Shown here: in pieces, positions 1 through 14,200 of the stretch
How positions within the stretch are numbered: position 1 is the stretch's first letter
Layout: each line of letters opens with the position of its first letter
Origin: a virus
Reading direction: 5' to 3' (one strand)
Virus record (IMG/VR): IMGVR_UViG_3300006793_000079
Location: 1 to 41,293 of that record
DNA length: 41,293 nt
Made by a program: the position numbers and the translations under genes
The notes under the pieces: generated by a model
Told to the model about the DNA's origin: nothing
The model's input: only the letters and a program-made list of their open reading frames with translations
Database searches by the model: none

Positions 1-326
1 TCAAACTGTTCTCTTGCCTCTATGTAGGACATTTCGCCCCTACCTTTACATAGGTATAATATTTCTCTTGTAAACTTGTCTTCGCCTAGTTGTGCAACGT
101 CTGCGTTTAGTCTATCACTAGATCCCCAGTAATCTCGCCAATCGCTTTCTTTTGTTCCACGTCTTTTATTTTTTCTGCCTTTAAGTGGTGGCTTAGTAGT
201 TTTAAATTTTGCTAGTTTCTTGCCTATGTATTTTTGACCTGTAGTGGTATTTGTAATTAGATAAACAAATCCTTCATACTCATCTGGTATTTCTTTAACT
301 TTTTTACCTTGATACGTCCACTGCAT
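1..326 (-). CDS. GIY-YIG endonuclease-like protein, 5' part only
   Basis: This reading frame on the minus strand stays open from an ATG at 326 to the window edge, so about 108 N-terminal residues are visible and the C-terminus is outside. Near residues 19-37 it reads GFVYLITN...GQKYIGKK, which matches the first two strands of the GIY-YIG nuclease fold: FVY stands for GIY and YIG is exact. Further on, DYWGSS and REILYLCKG resemble the small Seg-like GIY-YIG proteins seen in T4-like marine phages. The family cuts DNA, either as homing endonucleases or in repair and degradation. The catalytic Arg and Glu are hard to assign because the protein is incomplete, although an EARE segment is present near the cut. 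It follows the 66-residue gene by 20 bp and is probably the last visible member of the gp47 operon. The ATG has no strong ribosome binding site, so the start is likely but not certain. Confidence 0.7.
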   Translation of the reverse strand, partial: MQWTYQGKKVKEIPDEYEGFVYLITNTTTGQKYIGKKLAKFKTTKPPLKGRKNKRRGTKESDWRDYWGSSDRLNADVAQLGEDKFTREILYLCKGRGEMSYIEAREQF

Positions 327-346
327 CAAGTATATATGCGAGCCTG

Positions 347-547
347 TTATTTTTTGCCTTCTCGTTTGGCTTTGAACTTTGTATGTATTTCATCACCGCG
401 GATTTTACTTAATTTTCGTATTTCTCTCAGCCATCTTCTGCTGGCTGCATGTGTTCTAAACGAAACTCTTGATTCAAATGCTTCGTTTGCTTTAAAATAT
501 TCTATATATGCTTTGGTTAACTTATCATGGATGTCATCTTCAATCAT
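347..547 (-). CDS. conserved small phage protein, unknown function (66 aa)
   Basis: A 66-residue, strongly charged and probably all-helical protein with a basic C-terminal half (RRWLREIRKLSKIRGDE, then a Lys/Arg-rich tail). Its ATG lies inside the end of hemC, an 8-nt overlap, which suggests translational coupling and supports it as a real gene. I think similar short proteins with a W-L-x-E-I-R-K-L core occur in T4-like marine phages, but I cannot name a function. The basic helix could bind nucleic acid or a protein partner; that is speculation. It is not a displaced HemC C-terminal domain, because no HemC motif can be matched. Confidence 0.6.
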   Translation of the reverse strand: MIEDDIHDKLTKAYIEYFKANEAFESRVSFRTHAASRRWLREIRKLSKIRGDEIHTKFKAKREGKK

Positions 548-1283
548 AATACATTGCCTTTAGTGTAATAGGATTACTTCCAGTAGCATGAGCTGCAAGT
601 TTTGTATGACAATCACCGCCTATGCCTTTTAAAAATGCACGTTCAACTTGTGCTTGGGCAAAAGTTTTCTTATCATTTACTTTTTTAACTATATCAATAG
701 TATCAACATCATTCTTTCTAGTTTGTAGTGCAATTATTCCTTGACCAACTGCCGGAATAGTTGGAATCTTAATCCAAGTACGCCTAATATCCAATGCTTT
801 AAGGCCAGCTTCAGCTAATACTATAGCATCATATTCTTTATTGTCAAGTTTTTCTAACCTAGTGTCAATGTTGCCTCTGATAGGCTTAATTTTTATATCT
901 AAATTGTCGTATAGTTCTTTTAATTGAGCAGTTCGTCTAGGACTGCTAGTACCAATAGTACATCCGTAGCCTACACTACCAACAATTACGTCATGAGGGC
1001 TATTACGTTTCAACATTGAAGCAATAATCAAATCCGGATGTTCTTCTCCAGGCATGTCTTTGAGACTATGCACAGCAATATCAATGTTTTCTTCTAATAA
1101 TTCGTTTTCAATAGCAGTACAGAACACACCTTTACCGCCAATTTCGTTAATTGGAGTATCGTTGTTTAAGTCACCATGTGTTTGTATTACAACTATTTCT
1201 GTTTCGTGAGAAATTTCACTGCACACACGTTCGGCGTATGCAAGTGCTAGTTTACTTCCTCTTGTTCCGACCTTTAGTTTCAT
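540..1283 (-). CDS. hemC: hydroxymethylbilane synthase (porphobilinogen deaminase), C-terminally shortened
   Basis: HemC joins four porphobilinogens into hydroxymethylbilane in tetrapyrrole (haem) synthesis. The 247 residues carry the family motifs in order: GTRGSKLAL (R8), GGKGVF (49-54), HSLKDMP with catalytic D76, GTSSPRR (R116, R117), IRGNIDTRL (R136, R142), PAVGQGI (177-183) and the cofactor loop GGDCHT with dipyrromethane-binding C225. Two features are odd. The protein ends 22 residues after the cofactor cysteine, where E. coli HemC has about 70, so most of domain 3 is missing. The residue matching E. coli R176 (AGLKR) is alanine (A163 in AGLKA). The start overlaps gp46 by 4 nt (ATGA) and the end overlaps the next gene by 8 nt, so it is cotranscribed with recombination genes. 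Family assignment is sure. Full catalytic activity is not. It is a host-derived auxiliary metabolic gene by inference. Confidence 0.95.
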   Translation of the reverse strand: MKLKVGTRGSKLALAYAERVCSEISHETEIVVIQTHGDLNNDTPINEIGGKGVFCTAIENELLEENIDIAVHSLKDMPGEEHPDLIIASMLKRNSPHDVIVGSVGYGCTIGTSSPRRTAQLKELYDNLDIKIKPIRGNIDTRLEKLDNKEYDAIVLAEAGLKALDIRRTWIKIPTIPAVGQGIIALQTRKNDVDTIDIVKKVNDKKTFAQAQVERAFLKGIGGDCHTKLAAHATGSNPITLKAMYYD

Positions 1284-3052
1284 TCTACAATGTCAATATC
1301 ATTCTCATATGAGGTAAATCCGTTTTCTTTGACAACTTTCATTACATAATTGACCCTTCCTATAAGTTCATCTTTGTGTGAGATAAGGAAAACGTTCTTG
1401 TCTCCGTCTCTGCCCATCTTTTTAAGAACAGCAAGCGATCCTTCAACTCCTGCTGTATCCATACCACTATCGATAAGTTCGTCAATAAACAATAAATTAA
1501 TTTTTTGATACAGACTTTCCCAAACATCACGGAATGCAAAGCTCATACCAAGTATAAGTCTGTTACGTTCACCTCTTGACAAGTTATCAAAGTCTAAGTC
1601 TTGTCCTAGTTGTGTAATTTCAACATTTAAATCGTTTTGGAATACAACACTGTGTGGTAATCCTAGTTTATCAAGATAGTATGTAAGTCTATTGTTAAGA
1701 TATGCTAAGTTTTGATCAATAATCTTCTTGCGAATAAAGCTATCTTTGTTGGTTAATAGTTTTAACAAGAAGTCTTGGTGTTCTTTATAATTTGTAAGAT
1801 CATTTACTGGCGACCAATCAATTTCTTGCATAGCAGTATGATTCAATTCATCAATTTGTGCTTGGTAAGGATCGGCTTCTTCTTGTTTTGATGTAAGAGA
1901 TTGTTTTAAACTGTCAACATTCTGCCTATGCTCGTATGCTTCTTTTGCAGTTTCATAAAACACAGTAGGTTTACCATTAATGTCACCAATTTCTTCCAGT
2001 GTCATAATTACTTCAGAACATTTTGCATTTATTTCTTGTGCATATGCTTTTGCGTCTTCGAGCTCTTTAGTTTTACGCTCTGCAATCTCTGCTTTTTTGT
2101 CTGCGTGTAGTTCTTGACCGCACGTATAACATGTAGCATCTTCTAAATCTGCGATGTCTTTATTTGCTTTATCAACAGACTTGTCAGCACGTTGTAGTGC
2201 TGGTTCTAATGTGCTTAATTCCTTTTTAAGAGCCAAAATAGCATTATTATGCTCAGTCCAGTTTGATAGTTTTTCATGCGATTCTAGTTCAGATTCAATA
2301 TCTAAATGCTCTAATTCGGCGATTCCTTCTTTGAGCTTCATTACATCGTTAGTACGTTTTGCTAACCAAGCCTTCTGATTACTTTGCAAACTACTGATAG
2401 TAGTTTCAATTTTGCTGTTAGCAGACTGTATTGCTTCAATTTTAAGTGTTTCTTGTGTAATTGAATCTTTAGTTTGCTTAACTTGTTCTTTTAAGTTGTC
2501 AGCCTTCTCAGACAGTATAGTAATACCCAACAATTGTTCGATAATAGCACGTTGGTCATTAGTGCGCATTGCAAGAAATGGCTCTGAGTAAGTATTAAGT
2601 GCAACAATATGTTTGAACATATCATGACTCATACCTAACAATGTGTTGATATGTTCTTGCGTCTTTCGACTATCACCTTGGCTTTCATCTGTTTGTTCTT
2701 GTTCTTGATTATTAATAAAGAATTTTAAAAATGTAGGAGAACGTCCTCTTTCAATTCTGTAGTCTATACCATCCTTTTCAAAATCAAGAGACACTAACAT
2801 ACCTTTTGAGTTAGTTTTGTTGATCAAGTTGTTGCGTTTGATATTTGTAAGTGCAGTACCGTATAATGCATAACTTAGTGCATTAATAATTGTAGTTTTA
2901 CCAGTACCGTTACGTGATCCGCTATCGTCGCCTCCTTGATCTAGGTTCTCTCCTAACACTAATGTTAGGTTCTCCTTACTAAAGTCAATTGCTTGAGTCT
3001 GGTTGCCCACACTCATAAAGTTTTTTACGGTTAAGTCTTTTACTTTTATCAT
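1280..3052 (-). CDS. 46: gp46 recombination endonuclease subunit, Rad50-like SMC ATPase
   Basis: Large subunit of the T4-type gp46/gp47 nuclease, the phage counterpart of Rad50/Mre11 (SbcC/SbcD). It resects DNA ends for recombination-dependent replication and host DNA breakdown. The 590 residues show a Walker A site (GSRNGTGKTT, 45-54), long coiled-coil arms around a zinc hook CYTC (C308, C311), the ABC signature LSRGER (about 491-496), Walker B LLFIDE (520-525) and the switch histidine in FLISHKDE. Length is close to T4 gp46 (560). The start overlaps the gp47 stop by one base (TAATG) and the end overlaps hemC by 4 nt, so the three are translationally coupled and transcribed from the promoter at 4086-4114. 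Confidence 0.96.
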   Translation of the reverse strand: MIKVKDLTVKNFMSVGNQTQAIDFSKENLTLVLGENLDQGGDDSGSRNGTGKTTIINALSYALYGTALTNIKRNNLINKTNSKGMLVSLDFEKDGIDYRIERGRSPTFLKFFINNQEQEQTDESQGDSRKTQEHINTLLGMSHDMFKHIVALNTYSEPFLAMRTNDQRAIIEQLLGITILSEKADNLKEQVKQTKDSITQETLKIEAIQSANSKIETTISSLQSNQKAWLAKRTNDVMKLKEGIAELEHLDIESELESHEKLSNWTEHNNAILALKKELSTLEPALQRADKSVDKANKDIADLEDATCYTCGQELHADKKAEIAERKTKELEDAKAYAQEINAKCSEVIMTLEEIGDINGKPTVFYETAKEAYEHRQNVDSLKQSLTSKQEEADPYQAQIDELNHTAMQEIDWSPVNDLTNYKEHQDFLLKLLTNKDSFIRKKIIDQNLAYLNNRLTYYLDKLGLPHSVVFQNDLNVEITQLGQDLDFDNLSRGERNRLILGMSFAFRDVWESLYQKINLLFIDELIDSGMDTAGVEGSLAVLKKMGRDGDKNVFLISHKDELIGRVNYVMKVVKENGFTSYENDIDIVE

Positions 3053-4062
3053 TAAAGCTCGCTATAAATGTCTAGCAACATTTTTTTATTAAAGTTATCG
3101 CTGTCAATTGCACTAATTTCTTTTGATACAATTTCGTCAACGCTTTCAAAAGTTGAAATATCTAAGTCGGTTGTAATTTCTTCAATTTGTTTCTGTGGAA
3201 TTAGTGTTATCTCTCTACAGTTGTGAGTAGAGATATAAGTCTCTTTAATGTATTGTGCTTCTTCATAACTAATTGGCAAGTCAAGTGTAACACGTAGATA
3301 CATTTTAGGTTTGATAATGTCTTGGTTTGGGTCTAGTAGTTTGCTTAATGTAGTTGTACGATACTTAGGACAGTTCCACCAATTAATGTATTCAGGTTCT
3401 TTATTATTTTCTCTATCAAGTATCATCATGCCACGCTCGTCGTCCCATGCATCTGCATAGTTGTGTGGAAATGCATTACCAATGTAATGAATCTTACCTT
3501 GTACTTGACGTTTATGGAAGTGTCCACTAAACACATAGTCTTGATTTTTAAAATGCGACGGCTTTAGATCACCGTGGTCAGGCATTTTAACAAGTGCATT
3601 CATATAAAAGCTAGGAAGTTCAAAGTGACCAAACATGTACTTGGCTTTAATCTTTTCTATCTTCTTCCATTCGTCGCCTACTAACCAAGGAACAAGTACT
3701 ACATCTTCTTCCTCATATATTCCATCAACAAGTGTTACTCCAGGAATATGTCTACCAAAGATAGTAGAGCTTACATCACGCTTGTCTTTATAGTATAAAT
3801 CATGATTGCCAACAAACATATAAAACTTATCAAATGCAGCACCTAGTTTTTCGAGGCATCTTATAGTAGCATCCATAGTTGTAAGGTTAAGACTGTTCCT
3901 GTTATGGTGCCAGTCGCCACAAAATATGCCTGTTTCACAGCCATTAGCTTGTGCTTGTTCGATATACCAGTCTACAAATTCTTCGCAGTCGTCGTTATGT
4001 ACTTTTGAGTTGCCTTTTAGACCAAAGTGAATATCGGTAAAGACAGCAGCTTTCTTAAACAA
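3052..4062 (-). CDS. 47: gp47 recombination endonuclease subunit, Mre11-like phosphoesterase
   Basis: Nuclease subunit partnering gp46. The 336 residues carry the calcineurin-type metallophosphoesterase motifs in order: D10/H12 (FTDIHFG), D50/H52 (GDWHHN), N86/H87/D88 (VGNHD), H146 (GHFE) and H181/H183 (GHFHKR). These are the metal ligands of the Mre11 family. The length matches T4 gp47 (339). The best start is a TTG at 4062: a GGAG lies 8 nt upstream and the resulting N-terminus (MFKKAAVFTDIHFG) has the usual spacing to the first motif, while no ATG fits as well. It is the first gene after the promoter at 4086-4114 and is coupled to gp46 through TAATG. Confidence 0.96.
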   Translation of the reverse strand: MFKKAAVFTDIHFGLKGNSKVHNDDCEEFVDWYIEQAQANGCETGIFCGDWHHNRNSLNLTTMDATIRCLEKLGAAFDKFYMFVGNHDLYYKDKRDVSSTIFGRHIPGVTLVDGIYEEEDVVLVPWLVGDEWKKIEKIKAKYMFGHFELPSFYMNALVKMPDHGDLKPSHFKNQDYVFSGHFHKRQVQGKIHYIGNAFPHNYADAWDDERGMMILDRENNKEPEYINWWNCPKYRTTTLSKLLDPNQDIIKPKMYLRVTLDLPISYEEAQYIKETYISTHNCREITLIPQKQIEEITTDLDISTFESVDEIVSKEISAIDSDNFNKKMLLDIYSEL

Positions 4063-4085
4063 ATTAGAGTCTCCAGTTTTGTATT

Positions 4086-4114
4086 ATTATACATGAAATT
4101 GATTAAAGTGTCAA
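4086..4114 (-). promoter_or_regulatory. sigma-70-type promoter for gp47-gp46-hemC operon
   Basis: On the minus strand TTGACA (4114-4109) and TATAAT (4091-4086) are separated by exactly 17 bp, a perfect consensus for a host-type sigma-70 promoter. The -35 box overlaps the stop codon of gp55. Transcription would start near 4079 and the gp47 TTG is 24 nt downstream of the -10 box, with GGAG between them. Basis: sequence, plus the known bacterial consensus. Confidence 0.85.
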
Positions 4115-4944
4115 GTAGTTTTTTTCTTAGCAGCTTCTTCACGCTTCTGTGCGGCTTCCCACTCCCCAGCATGTTGTCTGGTATAACTTGGATTCATATT
4201 ATTCATTTCAAGAATATCGTCTCTAATGTTTTGATTACGCTTTTCTAAGTTGATAACACGCACAAAACTGTTAGTAACCGCGGCTGTATAGTATGCAAAC
4301 GGATTATTAGACTTTGATTCGTCAAATTGCAAACCAATTTGTGATAATTGAAGAATTGCTTGTCCTTTCATCTCATCGTTGTAAGTATAACCACGTACAT
4401 TGCCACGTGTAGCATAACGATCAACAAGTTTCATCCACATGCGAGCAAGTTCATTAGTCGCTCTAGCATGTTTTAAACTAAATCCACCGTTTTCCATGCC
4501 GCCTTCCCAGTGACTTTTGCCCACTAATATCAATTCACCATCCTCGTTAAACTTGTAGTGTTGAAAAGGTGGAAAATTAAGTTTAACTTTTGTATCGGCT
4601 ATTGTTTTTGGTGTCTTTTTCCGTCCTGGCTCGTCTGGAATATGGTCAAATGTCATTATACGGAAGATTAATTCTTCTTTTGTAATTTTTCTATAGTCAA
4701 CTTCGCATTCAGCCTGTTTAACCTTTTCGCCTGCTTTTCTTCTTGCTTCGTAATCAGCAGTTGATAAGCGTTTTGCTTTGTTTCGTTTTGCTTCTGCAAT
4801 AGTTCTTATGTTAATTTTATCAACATCTGGTAAAATGATGTCAAATTGGTGGTAGTCAGTATCAATAAAGCTACAAAATCCTGACTTTGATTTATGTATC
4901 TGTTTAAGTAAGTCTTTATTGTTGAGGTAATTCACTTTTCTCAT
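4111..4944 (-). CDS. 55: gp55-like sigma factor for late transcription, with a long insertion
   Basis: T4 gp55 is the phage sigma factor that lets host RNA polymerase use TATAAATA late promoters. Residues 3-15 (KVNYLNNKDLLKQ) match the T4 N-terminus (YNYVNNKELLQ). Residues about 162-246 match its sigma-region-2-like core: GYTYNDEMKGQAILQLSQIG corresponds to the T4 [21 protein letters not shown] segment, followed by FDESKSNNPFAYYT (T4 FDETKYKNPHAYIT) and NSFVRVINLEKR. At 277 residues it is about 90 longer than T4 gp55 (185). The excess is mostly a basic stretch of about 130 residues (27-160) between the two conserved parts. The tail is Lys/Glu-rich and lacks the hydrophobic clamp-binding end of T4 gp55 (...SLDFLYEANDY). 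It has its own promoter (4969-4997) and lies next to gp47, as in related marine phages. Confidence 0.82.
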   Translation of the reverse strand: MRKVNYLNNKDLLKQIHKSKSGFCSFIDTDYHQFDIILPDVDKINIRTIAEAKRNKAKRLSTADYEARRKAGEKVKQAECEVDYRKITKEELIFRIMTFDHIPDEPGRKKTPKTIADTKVKLNFPPFQHYKFNEDGELILVGKSHWEGGMENGGFSLKHARATNELARMWMKLVDRYATRGNVRGYTYNDEMKGQAILQLSQIGLQFDESKSNNPFAYYTAAVTNSFVRVINLEKRNQNIRDDILEMNNMNPSYTRQHAGEWEAAQKREEAAKKKTT

Positions 4945-4968
4945 AGTTTCTCCTGGAGTTATCTATAT

Positions 4969-4997
4969 ATTATAATATACTCTGATAATTTTGTCAA
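4969..4997 (-). promoter_or_regulatory. sigma-70-type promoter for gp55
   Basis: On the minus strand TTGACA (4997-4992) and TATAAT (4974-4969) are 17 bp apart, a perfect consensus. An AGGAGA ribosome binding site precedes the gp55 ATG at 4944. Beyond the two boxes it shares TTGACAAAAT and AGAGTATAT with the promoter at 38318-38346, which suggests a common phage early-promoter type. The -35 box touches the divergent late promoter at 4997-5004. Confidence 0.87.
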
Positions 4998-5004
4998 CTA
5001 AATA
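4997..5004 (+). promoter_or_regulatory. late promoter (gp55 type) before the virion module
   Basis: ACTAAATA lies 19 nt upstream of the ATG at 5023 and resembles the T4 late promoter TATAAATA, with two mismatches at the weak 5' end. A TAGGAG ribosome binding site follows at 5011-5016. The same core TAAATA precedes four other virion gene blocks in the window, always within 19-30 nt of the start codon, which makes chance unlikely. Confidence 0.65.
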
Positions 5005-5022
5005 ATACTATAGGAGATTATT

Positions 5023-5796
5023 ATGCCAAACAACCCATTATCTAGTATTGAAAATTTACAAGGTAGCAATCCGTCATCTGGTAACTCAGTTTCTAGCACT
5101 AGCAACGTTATAATTGATCCTAGTGCAAGGCGCCGAGGCAATTTACCTCCAGGAGCAGTTCCAACAAACGATTTAAATTTCGTTGAAGCTGACTGGGGAT
5201 CACAAACTGATCTTGATTGGAGAGTAAGATTGTCTATGCCTCCAAATTTTCAAAACAGTTCAGTGATGTCGCCGTTATTAGAAACTAACGGATTTATGTT
5301 TCCTTTTACTCCGCAAATTACTATGGAACACACAGCTAACTACAATGCTCTTCATCCTACACATAGTAATTATCCCTTTCCTGCTTATCAGAACAGTCAA
5401 GTGAGTTCTTTAACTATGATTGGAGAATTTTTTGTAGAAAATGCAAAAGAAGCAGAATATTGGGTAGCTGCAACACATTATTTAAGAAGTGTAACTAAAA
5501 TGGCATATGGTGCAACTAGCAATCAAGGTTCGCCACCACCAGTAGTAAAGTTAAATGGGTATGGCGACTTTGTATTTAAAGACGTTCCTGTAACAGTAAC
5601 ATACTTTACAGTTGATATGCCAAACGATGTAGATTACATTCAGTGTAACGTAGGAGAAAACGGAACATGGGTTCCGGTTAGAAGTCAAGTTAACGTTCAG
5701 GTACAGCCTACTTACAGTAGAAAAGCGGTAACTAAGTTTAGCTTAGATACATTTGTTTCCGGCGGCTATATTTCAAGCGGTAAAGGATTTATTTAA
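5023..5796 (+). CDS. tail tube cap/initiator-like structural protein (gp48/gp54 type, tentative)
   Basis: First gene of the virion module. The first ~45 residues of this 257-residue protein are Ser/Asn/Pro-rich. The body shows a pattern I associate with tube-like baseplate proteins of marine T4-like phages: DLDWRVRLSMPP, FMFPFTPQI, THSNYPFPAYQNSQ, EAEYWVAATHYLRSVTKM, PPPVVKLNGYGDF and VDMPNDVDYIQ. T4 gp48 and gp54 cap the baseplate and start tail-tube growth, and the next gene is gp53, so a cap or tube-initiator role fits. The match is by remembered family pattern and context, not by a diagnostic motif. It could equally be another hub or tube-adaptor protein. Its stop overlaps the gp53 start (TAATG). 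Confidence 0.6.
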   Translation: MPNNPLSSIENLQGSNPSSGNSVSSTSNVIIDPSARRRGNLPPGAVPTNDLNFVEADWGSQTDLDWRVRLSMPPNFQNSSVMSPLLETNGFMFPFTPQITMEHTANYNALHPTHSNYPFPAYQNSQVSSLTMIGEFFVENAKEAEYWVAATHYLRSVTKMAYGATSNQGSPPPVVKLNGYGDFVFKDVPVTVTYFTVDMPNDVDYIQCNVGENGTWVPVRSQVNVQVQPTYSRKAVTKFSLDTFVSGGYISSGKGFI

Positions 5797-6101
5797 TGAA
5801 AATATCTTACGAAAACAATAGTCCTTGGTTTAATACTAGTGTTGTTAATAATGAATATCTAGACATCTTAACTATTAGACCAATACCAGTTAGTGATGAT
5901 GACATATTATATGAAGTACAACCTCAATATACATATAGACCAGATTTGTTAGCATTTGATCTATATGGAACAAAGAATTTATGGTGGGTTTTTGCACAGC
6001 GCAATATTGACCTACTTAAAGATCCAGTTTACGACTTAGTTCCTGGAGTTAAAATATTTTTGCCTAAGGGCGATTCGTTAGCAAGACAATTAGGATTTTA
6101 A
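5796..6101 (+). CDS. 53: gp53-like baseplate wedge subunit
   Basis: A 101-residue protein with the compact gp53/LysM-like layout: RPDLLAFDLYGTKNLWWVFAQ (about 48-68), then a NIDLL...DPVYDLVPG segment and KIFLP. The pair 'YG...WWV' and the closing 'G..I.LP' are typical of the small phage gp53-like wedge proteins. T4 gp53 (196 aa) attaches the wedge to the central hub. The short length is common in marine T4-like phages. It sits between the tube-cap candidate (1-base overlap) and the hub candidate (start at the next base), consistent with assembly of the inner baseplate. Confidence 0.75.
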   Translation: MKISYENNSPWFNTSVVNNEYLDILTIRPIPVSDDDILYEVQPQYTYRPDLLAFDLYGTKNLWWVFAQRNIDLLKDPVYDLVPGVKIFLPKGDSLARQLGF

Positions 6102-8477
6102 ATGCCATTTGTACCCGAAGATAGCGGTAATATAATAGTTGGAGACCCAGGAGTTGATGCTGTTGGTAATCGCGGCACTGCGACAGTAAGTGATAGAGAT
6201 AGTACAACTAGTCAAACTATAAACTTTTTACAGAATCCAAGTCTTGCAGGTGCTAGTGCGTTATATGGCGCAGATATTTTTCCTTTTAGAAACGAATTAG
6301 ATCAGTTTGCAAGTTATGCTCCAGTTTTTACACTTGGATGTCTTACTAATATTGAATTTAATTTTCCACTAAGTTATAGAACACTTGGACCAGCAGTTAA
6401 AATAATTAGAAGTGGAGGCGGCGGTGGCCCAACAATACCATCATTGTATGATTTAGACGGTAAACGAGAGTTTTTTATTGAAGATTTAAACATAAAAAAT
6501 ACAGTTGCACCAAATCCAAAGTCAAGACATTCAAATGCTACTGCAATTAACTTTAAAGTTATTGAACCGTACTCAATGGGTCAATTTTTTCATAACTTAA
6601 GAAGTGCATCATTGGTAACTGGGCATAAAAATTATTTAGAAGCACCATTTTTAATTAGTATTGCATTTATAGGATATGATGATGACGGAAATGTTAAATC
6701 TCCGTTTTTTAGTCAGCGACATTTTCCTATACAAATAGTACAAGCTGAAATGAATGTTTCAGAATCAGGCGCAACTTACGATATTCAAGCAGTTCCGTAT
6801 ACAGAAAAAGCAATGACTAATCGAGCGCAAAGATTAAAAACAGATGTTGCGATTAAAGGACGTACAGTAGCTGAACTTTTACAAAATGGCCCACAAAGTC
6901 TTACAGCTGCGTTAAATCAAGTAACTGTTGAACAAAAAGCTGCTCAACAAAGTAGCGGCGACGAATTTGTAATACAATTTCCTAACACAAGTATTCTTGG
7001 AGCACTTGGCGGAGTAGTAGACGGACTAGCATCAGTTGCAAGTTCAGTAACAGGCTCACTTTCAGGTGTTGGTGGCGCTGTGAATGAATGGTATCAAGGA
7101 TTAGTAGGTGGTGATAATTCTCCGCCACCGAGATTATTAGAAAAAGTTTCAGAAAATACGGCTGTGTTTAGTTTAGGAACCCTTATTGGCAATAAATTAA
7201 AAGCACAAGCTGCGGCAGATATTAATGCAATTGGTAGATCTCAATTATTACGCCCCGGAACTCAATATAATTTAGGTAATACTCCTTACCAACTTCCTTC
7301 ATTTGCTGAAGATCCAGCCAACCCCGGGTTTCTAAAGCGTAATCTAATAAGTTATAATCCTGGCACATCGGTATATCAGTTTGAACAAGGCTCAAAAATA
7401 CAAGATATTATTGAAGAAGTTTTAATTACTTCACAATACGGTAGAGATTTTGCAAGTGCAAACGGAGACTTTTCAGGACGTAGATCGTGGTTTAGAATTG
7501 AACCTCAAGTATACAATGGTGGCGGGCTATTAGGAGGTTTAATAACTGGAAAATCTCCTAAAACATATGTTTATAGAGTGCGTCCATATAAAACTGACGG
7601 ATCAAATTTTTCAGCACCAGGATTTACAGGGTTTAGTAGAACACTTATAAAACAACTATTAACACCGAAAGCATACAGTTACATTTATACAGGGCAAAAC
7701 AAAGATATTATTGATTTTGATTTACGGTTTAACATGATGTACTACACTGGTGTGCAAGCCGCAAGAAACCAAAAACAATTAGCATCAGTATTAGGCGGAG
7801 CTGCATTGTTTGGACCAAAAGAAAGAGATGCTATTACAACAACAGGTGCAAATCCAAATATTTTGCCTGCTGGTGATGCAGTAGGCGGCGAAGTAAATGA
7901 TGATGGATCATCTACAGACAACGAACAAGGTGCAAATGGCGGTAATGCTGCTGGTGACGATCCGGAAACTGGAACAGCAAGATATTTTAATGATATGATG
8001 ATTAATTCTGGTAACGATTTACTACAAGTTGATTTAAAAATACACGGCGATCCGTATTTTATATCTGATGTTGGAGTAGGAAACTTCTTAGGACTTCCGA
8101 GCTCGCCGTTATTACCAGTAACTATAGATGGTAGTATGAATCCTATGGACGGTGAAGTATATGTTATTTTAAATTTTAGAACACCAATTGATTATGACGA
8201 AGAAGATGGATATGTAAAATATCCGTTAGGTGGGTTTTTACCAGTGTCAATGTTTAGCGGAATATATCAAGTTATTCAAGTTAATAATAGTTTCGATAAT
8301 GGAAAATTTGAACAGACACTCCAATTGGCTAGAAAGCGTAATCAAGATATTTCAATTGAAGCAGTTGCTGGAAAAGTAATCAGCTTCTTAATGGGCGGCA
8401 AAGGCAATGCCCAAGAAACTAGCGGCATACCATTTGTTAATAATATTGGAGAAACAGGCGTGGATGAAGGTGTATAA
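6102..8477 (+). CDS. baseplate hub protein, gp27-like candidate
   Basis: A 791-residue structural protein that overlaps the gp5 start by one base (TAATG). In T4, gp27 and gp5 form the hub-spike complex, so position suggests the gp27 role. The mid-region segment HFPIQIVQAEMNVSESGATY (about 208-227) and the C-terminal FSGIYQVIQVNNSFDNGKFE (about 720-740) with TLQLARKR look like the tube-like barrels of hub proteins (gp27, gpD). It is twice the length of T4 gp27 (391). The extra length includes a Gly/Ala/Val/Ser-rich hydrophobic stretch at about 297-340 and an acidic Asn/Gly/Asp-rich linker at about 592-625. No enzyme motif is seen. The hub assignment is inferred from context and pattern. That it is a virion protein is much more secure. 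Confidence 0.65.
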   Translation: MPFVPEDSGNIIVGDPGVDAVGNRGTATVSDRDSTTSQTINFLQNPSLAGASALYGADIFPFRNELDQFASYAPVFTLGCLTNIEFNFPLSYRTLGPAVKIIRSGGGGGPTIPSLYDLDGKREFFIEDLNIKNTVAPNPKSRHSNATAINFKVIEPYSMGQFFHNLRSASLVTGHKNYLEAPFLISIAFIGYDDDGNVKSPFFSQRHFPIQIVQAEMNVSESGATYDIQAVPYTEKAMTNRAQRLKTDVAIKGRTVAELLQNGPQSLTAALNQVTVEQKAAQQSSGDEFVIQFPNTSILGALGGVVDGLASVASSVTGSLSGVGGAVNEWYQGLVGGDNSPPPRLLEKVSENTAVFSLGTLIGNKLKAQAAADINAIGRSQLLRPGTQYNLGNTPYQLPSFAEDPANPGFLKRNLISYNPGTSVYQFEQGSKIQDIIEEVLITSQYGRDFASANGDFSGRRSWFRIEPQVYNGGGLLGGLITGKSPKTYVYRVRPYKTDGSNFSAPGFTGFSRTLIKQLLTPKAYSYIYTGQNKDIIDFDLRFNMMYYTGVQAARNQKQLASVLGGAALFGPKERDAITTTGANPNILPAGDAVGGEVNDDGSSTDNEQGANGGNAAGDDPETGTARYFNDMMINSGNDLLQVDLKIHGDPYFISDVGVGNFLGLPSSPLLPVTIDGSMNPMDGEVYVILNFRTPIDYDEEDGYVKYPLGGFLPVSMFSGIYQVIQVNNSFDNGKFEQTLQLARKRNQDISIEAVAGKVISFLMGGKGNAQETSGIPFVNNIGETGVDEGV

Positions 8478-10186
8478 TGGCACAGGATAGAAGAACTAAT
8501 GATAGAACTAGCAATACTGTAGGAGTTTATCTTGGTAAAGTTGTTAACCATCTTGATACTACTTTTATGGGCGGCTTACAAGTTGAAATTTTAAGAAGAA
8601 CTAAAACAGGTAGTTTGCAAGGCGAAACAGTTAATTGTAAGTATGCAAGTCCGTTTGCAGGACAAACTCCGTATGCAGGATTAGGATATGGATCAGACTA
8701 TGCAAGTACACAAAAAAGTTATGGCTTTTGGGCAGTCCCGCCAGACATTGGAACACAGGTAATTGTTCTAATGCCTGAAGGCGATTTTTCTCAAGCATTT
8801 TGGGTAGGATGTGTTGCTGATGTTGGCATGAATTTTTCAGTTCCAGGAAATGCCGGTACTACATACAATGATACTGATCCTTCTAAAGCATTGCCTGTAG
8901 CAGAATATAATAAAAGAGCTACAGAACTCAGCGGAAAAGATCCTACACAGGCTATAAAGCCAGTGCCTCCAGAAAGATATAAACGACTTGACGAAGCAGG
9001 ACTAGCTTCTGATCACGTTCGTGGTACAAATACGTCAAGTGCTAGACGAGAGTCGCCTAGTACAGTATTTGGTATATCTACTCCAGGACCACTAGACTTA
9101 AACGGACCAAAACATGCATACGGCCCAACGCCAGGCAGTTCAATTCAACGTCCCTTTAGTAGGTTAGGCGGACATTCTTTTATTATGGATGACGGTGACT
9201 TAACATTACAGCGAAAGGCTGCGGCAGGCGGCAATGACGGTGACAAGCTGGAATATGCTAATTTTGAAAAAGGTGATAAATCTGGAAAAAAAGAAATCCC
9301 TGCAAACGAAATGATAAAAATTCAAACACGTACAGGACATCAAATAATGATGAATTGTAGTGAAGATTTAATTTATATTGCACATGGTAGCGGAAAGAGT
9401 TGGATTGAAATGACATCCAACGGTAAAATTGATATTTACTCAGAAGATAGTATAAGTGTTAATAGTGACAATGATTTAAATCTTAATGCTGGCCGTAATA
9501 TTAATATGAGTGCTACAGAAAATATTAACATTATTTCTGATAAAAATACAGCAATACATTCACTTGAAAATACAAGTATGCAAGCAAAAAACTTTAGTCA
9601 ATTTATAGAAGAAGATTTTAATCTTAGAGTTGACGGAGAATCTAATGTTTATGTAAAAGGTAATCATAATTTAGTTGTAAAGGACAATTATTATATTTCT
9701 GTAGACTCTAACATGGAAACAAAAGTAGATCAAAATTCTGTAACACAGGCAAACACTATTAAAGAAAGAGCAATGGTCGATCATACGATTGGATCAAATA
9801 ATTTATATCTAGATGTTAATGTTGAAATTAACGGTGAAGCTAAAATTAAAAAATTAAAAGCAGGAATTATAAACAATACAGTAGCTGGATTAGCTTGGGA
9901 AGATAAGCCAGGAACCGATAATCAAATACTAAGTGAGTTTTCTTTTGGCTATAGCGGCGGTTCCCCTGGACAAGCAGCATCGGCAAAAGAAGCCAACGAA
10001 ATAGGAGACGGAGATAAAGCATTGTATCCAAAGCGTATTCCGTTACATGAACCTTGGGAAGGACATGAAAATTTAGATCCTAAATCTTTTAAACCAGATC
10101 GAACACTAGCAGAAGAATCAGAGCGTCCTAAGGAAGAAGAATCAAAATTTCAATTCCCTCCAATCGACGATACATTTAAAAAGTAA
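8477..10186 (+). CDS. 5: gp5-like baseplate hub/spike protein, no lysozyme domain
   Basis: Residues about 13-120 form the gp5/VgrG OB-fold: GVYLGKVVNHLDTTFMGGLQVEI, then YGFWAVPPDIGTQVIVLMPEGD and FWVGCVAD. A linker (about 125-225) is followed by GHSFIMDDGDLTL and the start of a beta-helical spike. This gives way to short repeats such as NDLNLNAGRNINMSATENINI (about 334-355) and later D/N-V-x-V repeats, like the T4 gp5 C-terminal needle. The T4 lysozyme domain between the OB-fold and the helix is absent: the linker is only ~100 residues, mostly Pro/Ser/Gly, with no Glu-Asp-Thr catalytic pattern. This is usual in marine T4-like phages. The C-terminal ~90 residues after the spike repeats are Glu/Lys/Pro-rich. 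Membrane puncture at injection is the inferred role. Confidence 0.88.
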   Translation: MAQDRRTNDRTSNTVGVYLGKVVNHLDTTFMGGLQVEILRRTKTGSLQGETVNCKYASPFAGQTPYAGLGYGSDYASTQKSYGFWAVPPDIGTQVIVLMPEGDFSQAFWVGCVADVGMNFSVPGNAGTTYNDTDPSKALPVAEYNKRATELSGKDPTQAIKPVPPERYKRLDEAGLASDHVRGTNTSSARRESPSTVFGISTPGPLDLNGPKHAYGPTPGSSIQRPFSRLGGHSFIMDDGDLTLQRKAAAGGNDGDKLEYANFEKGDKSGKKEIPANEMIKIQTRTGHQIMMNCSEDLIYIAHGSGKSWIEMTSNGKIDIYSEDSISVNSDNDLNLNAGRNINMSATENINIISDKNTAIHSLENTSMQAKNFSQFIEEDFNLRVDGESNVYVKGNHNLVVKDNYYISVDSNMETKVDQNSVTQANTIKERAMVDHTIGSNNLYLDVNVEINGEAKIKKLKAGIINNTVAGLAWEDKPGTDNQILSEFSFGYSGGSPGQAASAKEANEIGDGDKALYPKRIPLHEPWEGHENLDPKSFKPDRTLAEESERPKEEESKFQFPPIDDTFKK

Positions 10187-10199
10187 AAAGGCGTAAGTT

Positions 10200-10652
10200 A
10201 TGAGTACATTAGAAAAATCGTTATATCAACAAACTAAAGTAGCAGTAGGATCGAAAAAAGATAACATCTACGTAAAAAGTCCAACCTACAAAGGATTTAG
10301 TACAGCAGATGATTCTCAATCGAGCAATAAGCTATACGACATTGCATTGATTAAACAGGATATTATAAATCATTTTCATATTAGAAAAGGTGAAAAACTT
10401 AGTGATCCTGAATTTGGAACTATAATATGGGACGTATTATTTGAACCGTTAACTGATCAAACTCGCAATCTTATTATTAAAGATGTTTCAGATATTATAA
10501 ATTATGATCCTCGAGTTTCAGTTAATCAAATTACTGTTGACACATACGAGCATGGTATTCAAGTAGCATGTGAGTTAGTGTACAAACCGTATTCTATTGT
10601 TGAAAAAATACAGTTTCAGTTTGATGAAAACGCTGGATTTTTTACAGGATAA
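10200..10652 (+). CDS. 25: gp25 baseplate wedge subunit
   Basis: A 150-residue member of the GPW/gp25 family, which is conserved in contractile injection systems and starts sheath assembly at the baseplate. Diagnostic is the run RKGEKLSDPEFGTIIWDVLFEP (about 61-82), containing the conserved E-P core of the family, followed by LIIKDVSDIINYDPRVSV. Length is close to T4 gp25 (132), with a short N-terminal addition. It follows gp5 by 13 bp, with a weak AAGGCG ribosome binding site, and precedes gp6 across a 56-bp gap that holds a late promoter. Confidence 0.92.
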   Translation: MSTLEKSLYQQTKVAVGSKKDNIYVKSPTYKGFSTADDSQSSNKLYDIALIKQDIINHFHIRKGEKLSDPEFGTIIWDVLFEPLTDQTRNLIIKDVSDIINYDPRVSVNQITVDTYEHGIQVACELVYKPYSIVEKIQFQFDENAGFFTG

Positions 10653-10676
10653 TTATATACGCGGTTATTTAATACT

Positions 10677-10684
10677 GCTAAATA
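10677..10684 (+). promoter_or_regulatory. late promoter (gp55 type) before gp6
   Basis: GCTAAATA lies 25 nt upstream of the gp6 ATG (10709), in the 56-bp gap after gp25, with AAGGG at 10698-10702 as ribosome binding site. It shares the core TAAATA with the other late promoters. It would let gp6 and the giant gene behind it be transcribed separately from the hub genes. Confidence 0.6.
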
Positions 10685-10708
10685 TTACAAAGATATAAGG
10701 GAATAAAG

Positions 10709-13700
10709 ATGTCCTCAACTGACAGACAAAATAGATTGTTATTATCGGAAGATTGGAAGCGTGTCTACCAGTCATTCCGTAACGCAGACTTTCAGAGTTA
10801 TGATTTTGATAACTTGCGTAGAACTATGATTCAATACCTAAGGGATAATTATCCTGAAGATTATAATGACTATGTAGATAGTTCAGAGTATCTTGCACTA
10901 ATAGACCTTATTGCATACTTAGGACAAAATATTGCTTTCCGTATTGACTTAAATGCTCGTGAAAATTATATGGAACTTGCAGAGCGTAGAGAATCAGTTC
11001 TCCGTCTAGCAAGATTGCTTTCTTATAACCCAAAGCGTAATCAAGCTACTAACGGACTTGTAAAATTAGATAGTATCAAAACTACTGAACAAGTAATTGA
11101 TAGTAACGGAAATAACTTACAAGAACAAACTATTGTCTGGAACGATGTTTCAAATCCTGACTGGTATGAACAATTCATTAAAGTAATGAATACAGGATTA
11201 CCGTCAAATTCAGAGTTTGGAAAACCAAACAAAAAAGAGTTGATATCAGGAATATCAACAGAGCAATATAGATTTAATTCTATTAATTCAGACATTGCAA
11301 CTTACCAATATAATAAAATTATTGACGGAAGAAACTTACCGTTTGAAATAGTGTCAACTGATGTTACAAATACATCTATTAAAGAAGAAGCACCGTTTCC
11401 GGGAAATAAATTTGCATTAATTTATAAAGACGACGGAAAGGGTGTTGCTAGTAATTCAACAGGCTTCTTTAGTCACTTCCGCCAAGGGTCTTTAGACCAG
11501 GGTGTATTTACAATAAACAATCCTAGTTCTAATCAATCAATTGCAGTTGAAGCACCAGACATTAATGATACTGATGTTTGGTTATATAAATTAGATTCTG
11601 AAGGAAATGAACAAGAACTTTGGTCCAAGGTTGATGCATTACAAGGTAATAATGTTGTTTATAATAGCTTATCTAAATCAGAAAGAAATATTTACAGTGC
11701 GCTAACAAGAGTTGACGACAGAGTAACCTTAGTGTTTAGTGATGGTGTCTTTGGTAATTTACCACAAGGTACATTTAGAGTATACTTTAGATCTAGTCAA
11801 AACGAACGCATTGTTCTTACGCCTAAAGACTTCAGTAATATTGCAGTTAGCATTCCTTATACTTCTAAATCAGGAAAAACAGAAGAATTAACATTATTGT
11901 ATAGTTTGTATTACACAGTTGATAACGGCGCAACAAGCGAAAGTACTGATACTATTAGATTTAATGCACCGTCAACATACTATACACAAAATAGAATGGT
12001 AACTGGCGAAGACTATCAAGTTGCCCCACTTGGCATTAACCAAAAAATTGTAAAAGTAAAAAGTGTTAATAGAACAGCAAGCGGCATTAGTAGATATTTT
12101 GATTTAATTGATGCAACTGGAAAATATTCTCAAACTACACTTTACGGAAACGATGGTGTATTATATAAAGAGTATCAAAATAAGTTAGAAGGCTTTACTT
12201 TTACAACAAAGACTGATGTAGAAGGTGCTACTGAAAATACTATTGTTCCGTTATTGTCGGATAAGAAACTTCGAAATTTTTACTTTGACCAATTTCCTAA
12301 AATACTAACAGACGACTTAGGTATTAACTGGAGTAGAACAACAGTTGAAACTAACTTAGTAACAGGATTATTTAAAAGTGCAGACGGTATTGATATTAAA
12401 TTAGGTTCATTTACATCAACAATTATGTCTTTGTTAAAGCCAGGAACTTTAATTAAATTTATTGCTCCAACAGGAAAACATTTTGATAAAAAATTAAACA
12501 TAGTTGATGGGCCGTCATCTAAAATTGGTGACTTAGATTATAAGTGGGTAAAAGTAATTTCGGTTAATGGTACAGGTATTGAAGAAAGACCAGACGGAAC
12601 CGGAGCTGTATACTTAAATGACGAAATTCCTACTGGTGCTCTTTTAGGTGAAATTAAACCTGCATTAGCAAATAATTTAATTGGCAGTGTTAAACAACAG
12701 GTAATTGATCAAATATTTGTATATAAAACATTTGGACTACGCTTTGATCAAATAAGCGGCGAATGGAGACTAGTTACCGAAAATAACTTATCAATAGGCA
12801 CTGAATTTTCATCTGGAAAATCAGGAGATACTACTAATCAACAATTAGATGCTAGTTGGACACTACTATTTGAAAATGACGGTGAACGTTATACAATTAC
12901 ATACCGCGGTATGCGTTATGTATTTGAAAGTGATAAAGAGATTAAGTTTTATTACGATCCTAAAGAAAAAATTTACGATAGTAAAACCGGTAAAATTATT
13001 AAAGATGCAATTACAGTTTTAAATATAAATTATAAACCAGATGATGTTAATGCATTTACAAGAGATTTTGATTGGGAAATTGTTGATGCATATAGAGATT
13101 TAGAAGGTTATGTTGATAGTAAAAAATTAGAAATTAGTTACTTTGATGCAGACGAAGACGGTATTGTTGACGATGCAGATTTGTTTGAAGAAATTGTTTC
13201 GCCAACAGTTAACGTAAGATCTAAGTATGTTATATTTCAAAAAATAACCTCAGTTGACGGAGTTGAAGATTTTAATTATCTAAACAATGATGACGATGCA
13301 GTTATTATATTAGCTACAAAATCTGAATTAAGGCCATTTAGCGAATATAAGGATGGACAAGTATTTTATTACATTGATACTGATGTATTTGAAGTGCTAA
13401 GCCAAACATCATTAAAGTTAACTATTAGTGCAGATTATAAAGCACGTCTTGGTCGTAATAATTTAAAATTTAGATATTATCATGCAGCGAGTGCAGAAAC
13501 ACGTATTGATCCTAGTGCAAGCAATATTATTGATATGTATATTCTTGATAGAACATATGATGCAAATTACCGTATATGGTTATTAGAAAATTCAATTAAA
13601 CAGCCACTTCCGCCAAGCAGTGACGAGCTGTTTATATCTTATGCTAGTGAATTAAATAAAATTAAATCATTAACAGATGAAATTATATACCATCCGGTTA

Positions 13701-14200
13701 AGTACAAAGTACTATTTGGTAATAAGGCAACAGAAGATTTGCAAGCTACATTTAAAATTGTAAAAAACAAAGACAAAGTATTAAATGATAACGAAATTAA
13801 AACACGTATCATAACAGCAATTAATCAATTTTTTGCTTTAGACAATTGGGATTTTGGAGAACAGTTTTATTTCTCAGAACTTGCAAACTATGTTATGTAT
13901 CAACTTGCTCCAGATGTATCTACATTTATTATTGTACCAAAACAAGAAGAACAAAGTTTTGGTAGCTTATACGAAATTAAAGCAGAAGCTGACGAAATTT
14001 TTATTAGTGGCGCTGATGTTACTAACATCGAAGTTATAGACGCAGTAACAGCTTCGAGACTCAAAGCACAAAATACAATAACCACACAAGCTGCTTCAGT
14101 AAATGCTGGAATACAAAGTTCAGCATTAGACGATGCTTCGGCAAGAGTTACATCTACAAACAATGTAATTAATAATACTAACACAGGGACAACTTACTAA
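10709..14200 (+). CDS. 6: gp6 baseplate wedge protein (BaseplateJ-like)
   Basis: gp6 forms the ring that joins the baseplate wedges. The N-terminus (DWKRVYQSFRNADFQSYDF, then YLALIDLIAYLGQNIAFRID and RRESVLRLARLLSYNPKR, to about residue 115) is the typical gp6 helical start. A BaseplateJ-like region lies at about 395-470 (IRFNAPSTYYTQNRMVTGED, then VKSVNR). The C-terminal part (about 985-1110) holds IIYHPVKYKVLFG and FGEQFYFSELANYVM. The 1163 residues far exceed T4 gp6 (660). The extra mass is mostly beta-rich sequence between about 490 and 980. This includes an acidic DADEDGIVDDAD loop (about 812-823) that looks like a calcium-binding EF/thrombospondin type-3 loop. The stop overlaps the next ATG (TAATG at 14200), tying its translation to the giant gene. 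Confidence 0.9.
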   Translation: MSSTDRQNRLLLSEDWKRVYQSFRNADFQSYDFDNLRRTMIQYLRDNYPEDYNDYVDSSEYLALIDLIAYLGQNIAFRIDLNARENYMELAERRESVLRLARLLSYNPKRNQATNGLVKLDSIKTTEQVIDSNGNNLQEQTIVWNDVSNPDWYEQFIKVMNTGLPSNSEFGKPNKKELISGISTEQYRFNSINSDIATYQYNKIIDGRNLPFEIVSTDVTNTSIKEEAPFPGNKFALIYKDDGKGVASNSTGFFSHFRQGSLDQGVFTINNPSSNQSIAVEAPDINDTDVWLYKLDSEGNEQELWSKVDALQGNNVVYNSLSKSERNIYSALTRVDDRVTLVFSDGVFGNLPQGTFRVYFRSSQNERIVLTPKDFSNIAVSIPYTSKSGKTEELTLLYSLYYTVDNGATSESTDTIRFNAPSTYYTQNRMVTGEDYQVAPLGINQKIVKVKSVNRTASGISRYFDLIDATGKYSQTTLYGNDGVLYKEYQNKLEGFTFTTKTDVEGATENTIVPLLSDKKLRNFYFDQFPKILTDDLGINWSRTTVETNLVTGLFKSADGIDIKLGSFTSTIMSLLKPGTLIKFIAPTGKHFDKKLNIVDGPSSKIGDLDYKWVKVISVNGTGIEERPDGTGAVYLNDEIPTGALLGEIKPALANNLIGSVKQQVIDQIFVYKTFGLRFDQISGEWRLVTENNLSIGTEFSSGKSGDTTNQQLDASWTLLFENDGERYTITYRGMRYVFESDKEIKFYYDPKEKIYDSKTGKIIKDAITVLNINYKPDDVNAFTRDFDWEIVDAYRDLEGYVDSKKLEISYFDADEDGIVDDADLFEEIVSPTVNVRSKYVIFQKITSVDGVEDFNYLNNDDDAVIILATKSELRPFSEYKDGQVFYYIDTDVFEVLSQTSLKLTISADYKARLGRNNLKFRYYHAASAETRIDPSASNIIDMYILDRTYDANYRIWLLENSIKQPLPPSSDELFISYASELNKIKSLTDEIIYHPVKYKVLFGNKATEDLQATFKIVKNKDKVLNDNEIKTRIITAINQFFALDNWDFGEQFYFSELANYVMYQLAPDVSTFIIVPKQEEQSFGSLYEIKAEADEIFISGADVTNIEVIDAVTASRLKAQNTITTQAASVNAGIQSSALDDASARVTSTNNVINNTNTGTTY

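Follow-up and report, generated by a model that had tools for sequence, protein, structure and literature searches.

Hydroxymethylbilane (HMB) synthase, the product of hemC, builds a four-pyrrole chain on its own cofactor, and the parts of the enzyme that govern this chain are still argued over. HemD closes hydroxymethylbilane to uroporphyrinogen III, and HemE and HemF act in the next steps. In the E. coli enzyme, domain 3 spans residues 222–313 (92 residues), chain and product are handled by R11, Q19 and R176, R176H harms the enzyme, and simulations show contacts of E305, V306 and N308, near the C-terminus, with the active-site loop at its residue K55 (consulted sections of PMC3945110). Pelagiphages are described as carrying genes for 5-ALA synthase, heme oxygenase and bilin reductase, and one phage 5-ALA synthase was active (consulted sections of PMC11480375); these are SAR11-type phage tetrapyrrole genes like the one studied here, but they serve other steps of the pathway, and hemC is absent from the main text of that report. 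Porphobilinogen deaminase was found as a phage gene in only one open-access report, PMC7029224, whose consulted part names it together with coproporphyrinogen oxidase in a putative deep pelagimyophage ecotype. No open-access report was found of a truncated HemC, of a hemE-hemF-hemC block or of the SAR11 variant at Q19 and R176 that are described below; these three are apparently new, while HemC in pelagimyophages is already published.

The hemC gene studied here lies in a stretch of viral DNA of 41,293 nucleotides (hereafter the window; IMG/VR record IMGVR_UViG_3300006793_000079, positions 1 to 41,293), with the following features:

347–547, minus strand: 66-aa ORF downstream of hemC, kept among the neighbours of relatives
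540–1283, minus strand: hemC, truncated HMB synthase of 247 aa, with Ala163 at the R176 position, Tyr16 at Q19, Glu47 at K55 and the cofactor cysteine Cys225
540–671, minus strand: domain-3 remnant of hemC (codons 205–247), with helix 205–221, strands 229–234 and 240–245 and Cys225, supported by AlphaFold model, structural alignment and dN/dS
1280–3052, minus strand: gp46-like recombination endonuclease subunit (SbcC), directly upstream of hemC
3052–4062, minus strand: gp47-like recombination endonuclease subunit (SbcD)
4111–4944, minus strand: probable late sigma factor, from its position in the sigma-SbcD-SbcC block shared with PA5oct (NC_071039)

The hemC reading frame runs from an ATG at 1283 to 540, shares four bases with gp46, which ends at 1280 (a common ATGA), and overlaps the next ORF by eight bases at its 3' end, in agreement with the initial annotation, which had described an intact gene overlapping both neighbours. 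It stands among phage genes, between gp46 and phage ORFs, and the order is identical in long relatives. The encoded protein scored 260.7 bits against the HemC equivalog profile TIGR00212, above the cut-off of 164, and 216 bits against PF01379, while the domain 3 model PF03900 matched at positions 3–38 of 74 only, with 23 bits, under its cut-off of 26; a SAR11 HemC used as control (L125) matched the same model at positions 1–73 with 45.4 bits. Because a complete domain 3 was tested with PF03900 and not found, we regard the window HemC as a variant rather than a typical HMB synthase. Another naturally short HemC family, whose members we take to be chlamydial, is represented by the model NF002202 (PRK01066, 241 positions); the window protein (P0001) scored 99.3 bits against it, below the cut-off of 251, and the match ended at residue 200, before the cofactor cysteine.

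Alignment showed that the cofactor cysteine (C225), the catalytic aspartate (D76) and the cofactor-binding arginines (R116, R117, R136 and R142) are present and, together with R8, correspond to E. coli C242, D84, R131, R132, R149, R155 and R11, respectively; K59, Q198 and R232 (E. coli numbering) are also kept. Ala163 indeed aligns with R176, Tyr16 aligns with Q19 and Glu47 with K55, so that the earlier view that all catalytic residues other than R176 are kept holds for R8, D76, R116/R117, R136/R142 and C225 and fails at Q19 and K55, and two of the R11/Q19/R176 trio are replaced. Position K55 is mostly Glu or Asp in SAR11 and other alphaproteobacteria too. The equation of R176 with human R173 had to be withdrawn, since R173 corresponds to E. 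coli R155 in the consulted part of PMC3945110, a residue kept in the phage protein as R142. R176 fits human R195, with the offset of 19 that is also found in A170/A189, Q198/Q217 and G199/G218, and R195 is listed with porphyria changes to Cys or His (consulted parts of PMC3945110 and PMC7907807); the human label was thus wrong, yet by this numbering the true counterpart is also a disease position.

An AlphaFold model built with 128 sequences was confident (pLDDT 93.2, pTM 0.89), replacing one built with 8 sequences (pLDDT 54.4), and its least certain stretch was residues 41–50, within the active-site loop. Structural alignment gave Z scores of 32.2 to 4htg and 31.0 to 1pda. The window protein shares with the E. 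coli and human enzymes (1pda and 7ccy) the fold of domains 1 and 2, the catalytic aspartate, the cofactor cysteine and the arginines; by contrast, it replaces Gln19 and Arg176 (human R195) and its last residue corresponds to E. coli 265 and human 284. The nonsense mutation W283X of human HMB synthase is reportedly prevalent in acute porphyria, to judge from reference-list titles. With the end at E. coli 265, domain 3 has lost about 48 of its 92 residues, including the counterparts of E305, V306 and N308, while the helix (205–221) and two strands (229–234 and 240–245) stay; the protein does stop 22 residues past C225, as first noted, and a part of domain 3 is missing, although "most" of it was an overstatement. 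By profile, residues and fold the window protein is an HMB synthase, with predicted activity and product. The face of the remaining hairpin, which is covered by helices in the full enzyme, should lie bare, going by the domain description in the consulted part of PMC3945110, and this would suit a split enzyme that receives the missing half of domain 3 from another phage or host protein. We consider such an arrangement highly improbable: AlphaFold reached a confident model with no partner present, PF03900 matched just once in each of 14 virus records (fragments), and in the five records with gene lists (the window and G533–G536) this match was the end of hemC itself. The 66-aa ORF downstream had no Pfam or PHROGs match and by eye is unlike the missing half.

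Phage HemC rows were sorted by tail length after the cofactor cysteine (at most 30, 31–52, or more residues), so the finding is the number in each class and not a gap within a class. Class counts refer to the rows kept in the viral scans (best 80 of 212, best 80 of 177 and best 80 of at least 597 relatives); one contig may give several rows, and distinct proteins were counted separately. Among the matches listed, proteins of the window class (120 rows, 68 distinct) end 22–25 residues past the cysteine, exactly 22 in 64 of the 68, and the commonest tail is 49 residues in a sister phage class (27 rows, 18 distinct) and 56 in a pelagiphage-type class (11 rows, 7 distinct). The cellular rows (157) have tails of at least 60 residues in SAR11 (commonest 62), at least 51 in other alphaproteobacteria and at least 47 in the others, and the open frames at HemC matches in SAR11-order genomes, measured between stop codons, span no fewer than 298 aa, apart from one split gene. 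Against the cellular minimum of 47, the sister class lies inside the cellular range and the window class far outside it, and among the rows compared the halving of domain 3 was seen only in phages. R11, K59, K83, D84, R131, R132, R149, R155, Q198, R232 and C242 are invariant in all 120 listed rows of the window class. Sister-class proteins (275–281 aa, for example L353, L361 and L389) resemble those of the window class in a deletion of seven residues and in often adjoining gp46 or hemE, but retain more of domain 3. In the phage collection, the window hemC gave 10 matches, all just 32.6–39.1% identical, of which H5 is a bacterial hemC-hemD pair and H1 and H9 are without annotation; the phage HTVC008M is absent from these matches and has no hemC listed in its first 50 kb. 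Genome contigs scanned with the window HemC alone gave 22 pattern matches and no relative, and a first narrow scan of viral contigs for SAR11-type hemC gave 62 pattern matches and no relative, although a broader scan did find such genes.

Across 359 pairs from 71 equal-length sequences, which are not independent and include some contigs twice, median dN and dS were 0.048 and 0.660 for residues 1–204 (domains 1 and 2) and 0.036 and 0.477 for residues 205–247, and the domain-3 remnant is thus under purifying selection. The first viral scan gave 59 loci (among the matches listed), of which 57 have an intact ORF of 245–248 aa with a nearly identical end and the other two are a contig-edge fragment and a broken copy. 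The broken copy, on contig IMGVR_UViG_3300032085_001050 (L046, L091 and L414), has an internal stop after 179 aa, with tblastn matches reaching the end of the gene, and reflects either decay of the gene or a faulty assembly. Among 77 further gp46 relatives (from the best 80 of at least 597, three being already known), hemC lies downstream in 9, is missing in 43 despite at least 900 bases of downstream sequence, and cannot be scored in 25 that end too soon; its lack in 43 of the 52 scorable relatives makes hemC an accessory gene in this phage group. This patchy presence and the broken copy are what could be expected of a decaying passenger gene or an assembly artefact, a reading that is scarcely credible given the intact loci, the low dN/dS, which extends to the remnant, and the same end in 64 of 68 listed distinct proteins from many metagenomes; the selection result contradicts it. 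The proposal that the gene is selected and not decaying is upheld by this fixed C-terminal end, by the dN/dS values and by hemE and hemF beside hemC in relatives.

The replacement of Q19 and R176 proved to be shared with cells. Cellular HemC sequences came from a pattern scan (best 80 of 585), from SAR11-order genomes and from other alphaproteobacteria; the SAR11 rows were not a random sample, consisting of the 30 best-scoring loci, 20 picked down the list (2 of 492 aa dropped) and 4 named ones. The two dropped loci (L257 and L258, from SAR11-order genomes) encode HemC of 492 aa with 233 residues past the cofactor cysteine. They sit on a very long branch, may be fusions and were excluded from later SAR11 counts. 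R176 is lacking in 42 of 52 SAR11 rows, 12 of these having Ala, and 41 of the 52 have Tyr at position 19 as in the phage; none of these 41 has Arg176, residue 176 being Ser in 16, Ala in 12, Tyr in 4, Asn in 3, Phe in 2, Thr in 2, Val in 1 and His in 1 (loci L125, L129, L132, L133, L212 and L226 are examples). The other 11 SAR11 rows have Gln19 with Arg176 (10) or Lys176 (1), and all 105 other cellular rows have Gln19 and Arg176 (29 of 29 other alphaproteobacterial and 76 of 76 other cellular rows, E. coli included). HemC was found in 133 of 147 SAR11-order genomes, as a single match in 132 and as two matches from a split gene in one, so the enzyme without R176 seems to be the sole HemC of those SAR11. 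Since 41 of 52 SAR11 rows lack both residues, Q19 and R176 do not define the HemC family, and because most SAR11 rows are also without R176, the alanine can be dismissed both as a phage invention and as a sign of damage. The suggestion of the initial annotation that Ala163 makes the enzyme slow or its chain shorter accordingly loses force. The comparison with SAR11 and other phage HemC that it had proposed separates two features: the residue, alanine included, recurs in SAR11, the putative host lineage, and the short length does not, truncation being seen in phages only.

A tree was built from 94 thinned rows over E. coli columns 5–246, with columns 19, 55 and 176 removed. SAR11 and the phages formed one group (100/99), within which the window class (100/98) and the sister class (97/87) were each one clade and were joined to each other (100/99). 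Pelagiphage-type rows fell inside SAR11, beside one SAR11 row (100/97), and this nesting points to a separate capture at a later date. For the older phage clade, a place within SAR11 fits as well as one next to it: SAR11 without this clade had support of 44/91, and a tree holding Tyr19 SAR11 and the phages together was equally good (p-AU 0.584). Two changes at position 19 and three at position 176 were placed on the tree, which indicates few events rather than many independent ones. The three best matches of the window protein among 385 alphaproteobacterial genomes all belonged to the SAR11 order (48, 48 and 45% identity). SAR11 chromosomal HemC, the closest cellular relative and alike at positions 19 and 176, differs from the phage protein in its complete domain 3 and in the absence, in most rows, of the deletion at the start of domain 2. 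These relationships suggest that hemC was probably taken from SAR11-type ocean bacteria, the putative phage hosts; tRNA genes as a host hint were found neither in the window nor in two long contigs. The pelagimyophage-type HemC (L342–L352) is likewise phage-borne, derives from SAR11 and has Tyr19 and Ser176, but represents the separate recent capture and is nearly full length. Accompanied by hemB and hemF or hemE, it is probably the gene named in the consulted part of PMC7029224.

Baseplate genes, the sigma factor, gp47 and gp46 form a block that is common, in the same order, to Pseudomonas phage PA5oct, which lacks hemC at this place; the window gp46 and gp47 are about 50% identical to those of PA5oct, their best matches, and the sigma factor candidate had no Pfam match. 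Positions 1280–10652 hold a core block nearest to PA5oct-like (Arenbergviridae) jumbo phages, although the phage group is marine and its hemC groups with SAR11; the GC content of the window is 34.1%. Among the baseplate and tail genes, positions 14200–30036 are taken up by a single ORF of 5278 aa, which is about 5000 aa long in four long relatives. At positions 3–329 an ORF starts whose full-length relative (L112, 6957–7403) matches the SegE-type GIY-YIG endonuclease family PF19835 with 122.5 bits, making a homing endonuclease two genes from hemC possible. Many ORFs with CxxxCxxC-type motifs, like those of radical-SAM proteins, were seen by eye in G533 (1–12841) and G534 (41729–67096).

The window holds no other heme gene beside hemC; several relatives do:

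L112 4239–6744, L121 1774–4267, L419 5270–7775 and L118 4242–6747: hemE-hemF-hemC block (uroporphyrinogen decarboxylase, oxygen-dependent coproporphyrinogen oxidase, HMB synthase)
L389 3210–5802: hemF-hemC-hemE block of the sister class
L347 2429–4867 and L342 2220–4867: hemF-hemB-hemC or hemE-hemB-hemC on pelagimyophage-like contigs

Among the matches listed, the 67 distinct window-class hemC genes were arranged as gp46-hemC alone in 48, gp46-hemE-hemC in 10, gp46-hemE-hemF-hemC in 3 and hemE-hemF-hemC in 1, with none of these neighbours recognised, often near contig ends, in 5, so that hemE accompanies hemC in 14 and hemF also in 4 of these. The 18 distinct listed sister-class genes were found as gp46-hemC (8), hemC-hemE (5), hemF-hemC-hemE (2) or alone (3), and all seven pelagiphage-type genes scored among the matches listed stand beside hemB, five with hemF and one with hemE. 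Two viral contigs with alphaproteobacterial-type hemC that has Q19 and R176 (L370 and L400) were left out of the neighbour scoring. One HemE, one HemF and one HemB passed the Pfam cut-offs. With NCBIfam models, three HemF passed and so did the HemE of L342 (306.6 bits), while the HemE of L057 and L389 reached 197–200 bits, under the cut-off of 303, and HemB reached 143 bits, under 297; HemE of the two older classes is thus below the NCBIfam cut-off and far above that of Pfam. On the L347 and L342 contigs, HemB is a short protein of 263 aa that stays below the NCBIfam cut-off. A search of five contigs with E. coli hemD as query gave no match, and such a search is weak because hemD diverges fast.

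Taken together, the gene probably encodes a working minimal HMB synthase, derived from phage capture of a SAR11-type hemC, that would add to tetrapyrrole supply during infection; the analysis established its conservation, relatedness, purifying selection, confident predicted fold and gene linkage, while its activity, product, host and physiological role are inferred. In this scenario, a SAR11-type lineage would first have swapped the substrate-handling pair Gln19/Arg176 for Tyr and a small or varied residue, and the phage lineage would then have trimmed the C-terminal half of domain 3 and, in domain 2, a seven-residue loop where the domain starts and a stretch of four residues. What is left of domain 3, a helix and a hairpin, is predicted still to hold Cys225 in the cleft between domains 1 and 2. 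Since this remnant carries the Cys loop, the trimmed domain is probably tolerated, and since the cleft, the catalytic aspartate, the cofactor cysteine and the arginines are present, the enzyme should load two porphobilinogens as its dipyrromethane cofactor, join four more to it and release hydroxymethylbilane. Host HemD would take over the product, followed in relatives by HemE and HemF of the phage, giving more heme or another tetrapyrrole during infection. Against this explanation we counted the loss of E305/V306/N308, the harm done by R176H in E. coli (consulted part of PMC3945110), the lack of another heme gene beside hemC in the window, the gp46-hemC arrangement alone in 48 of 67 listed genes and the lack of a hemD match in the weak search, as well as the sub-cut-off HemE of the older classes, the one broken hemC and the placement of the phage clade relative to SAR11.

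With half of domain 3 lost, the active-site loop and the cofactor loop could move differently, leading to an early stop, to shorter or longer pyrrole chains or to slow work. The lost residues contact K55 in the E. coli simulations (consulted part of PMC3945110) and K55 is Glu here, but this position is mostly Glu or Asp in SAR11 and other alphaproteobacteria as well; the class also differs at the P245 column (window K228), three residues past the cofactor cysteine, which is Lys in 112 of 120 window-class rows, Ala in 27 of 27 sister-class rows and mostly Pro in cells (among the matches listed). Altered chemistry nevertheless appears unlikely, because the cofactor and catalytic residues other than Q19 and R176 are kept throughout the class, and because the presence of hemE and hemF next to hemC suggests that an ordinary tetrapyrrole is made. 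A bolder form is about as unlikely: this would be the smallest cofactor-bearing HMB synthase, in which the halved domain 3 alters chain-length control or turnover, yielding precursor faster or a different linear pyrrole, with SAR11 and the phages using Tyr and a varied residue for the Gln19 and Arg176 of the 105 other cellular rows. We know of no smaller cofactor-bearing HMB synthase. Having lost Q19, R176 and one half of domain 3, the protein might also have a non-enzymatic or regulatory role, such as binding porphobilinogen or host HemC, but this is very unlikely, as the catalytic Asp84, the cofactor Cys242 and the surrounding arginines are invariant in 120 rows.

The sequences offer a natural series of tail lengths past the cofactor cysteine, most commonly 62 residues in SAR11, 56 in the pelagiphage type, 49 in the sister class and 22 in the window class, and they show Q19 and R176 replaced together in an abundant lineage of marine bacteria. 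With these, it can be tested directly whether domain 3 is needed and what R176 does, a residue for whose human counterpart, R195, the consulted part of PMC7907807 lists porphyria changes. The sequences also show that marine phages carry blocks of heme-pathway genes, in the forms hemE-hemF-hemC, hemF-hemC-hemE and hemF-hemB-hemC.
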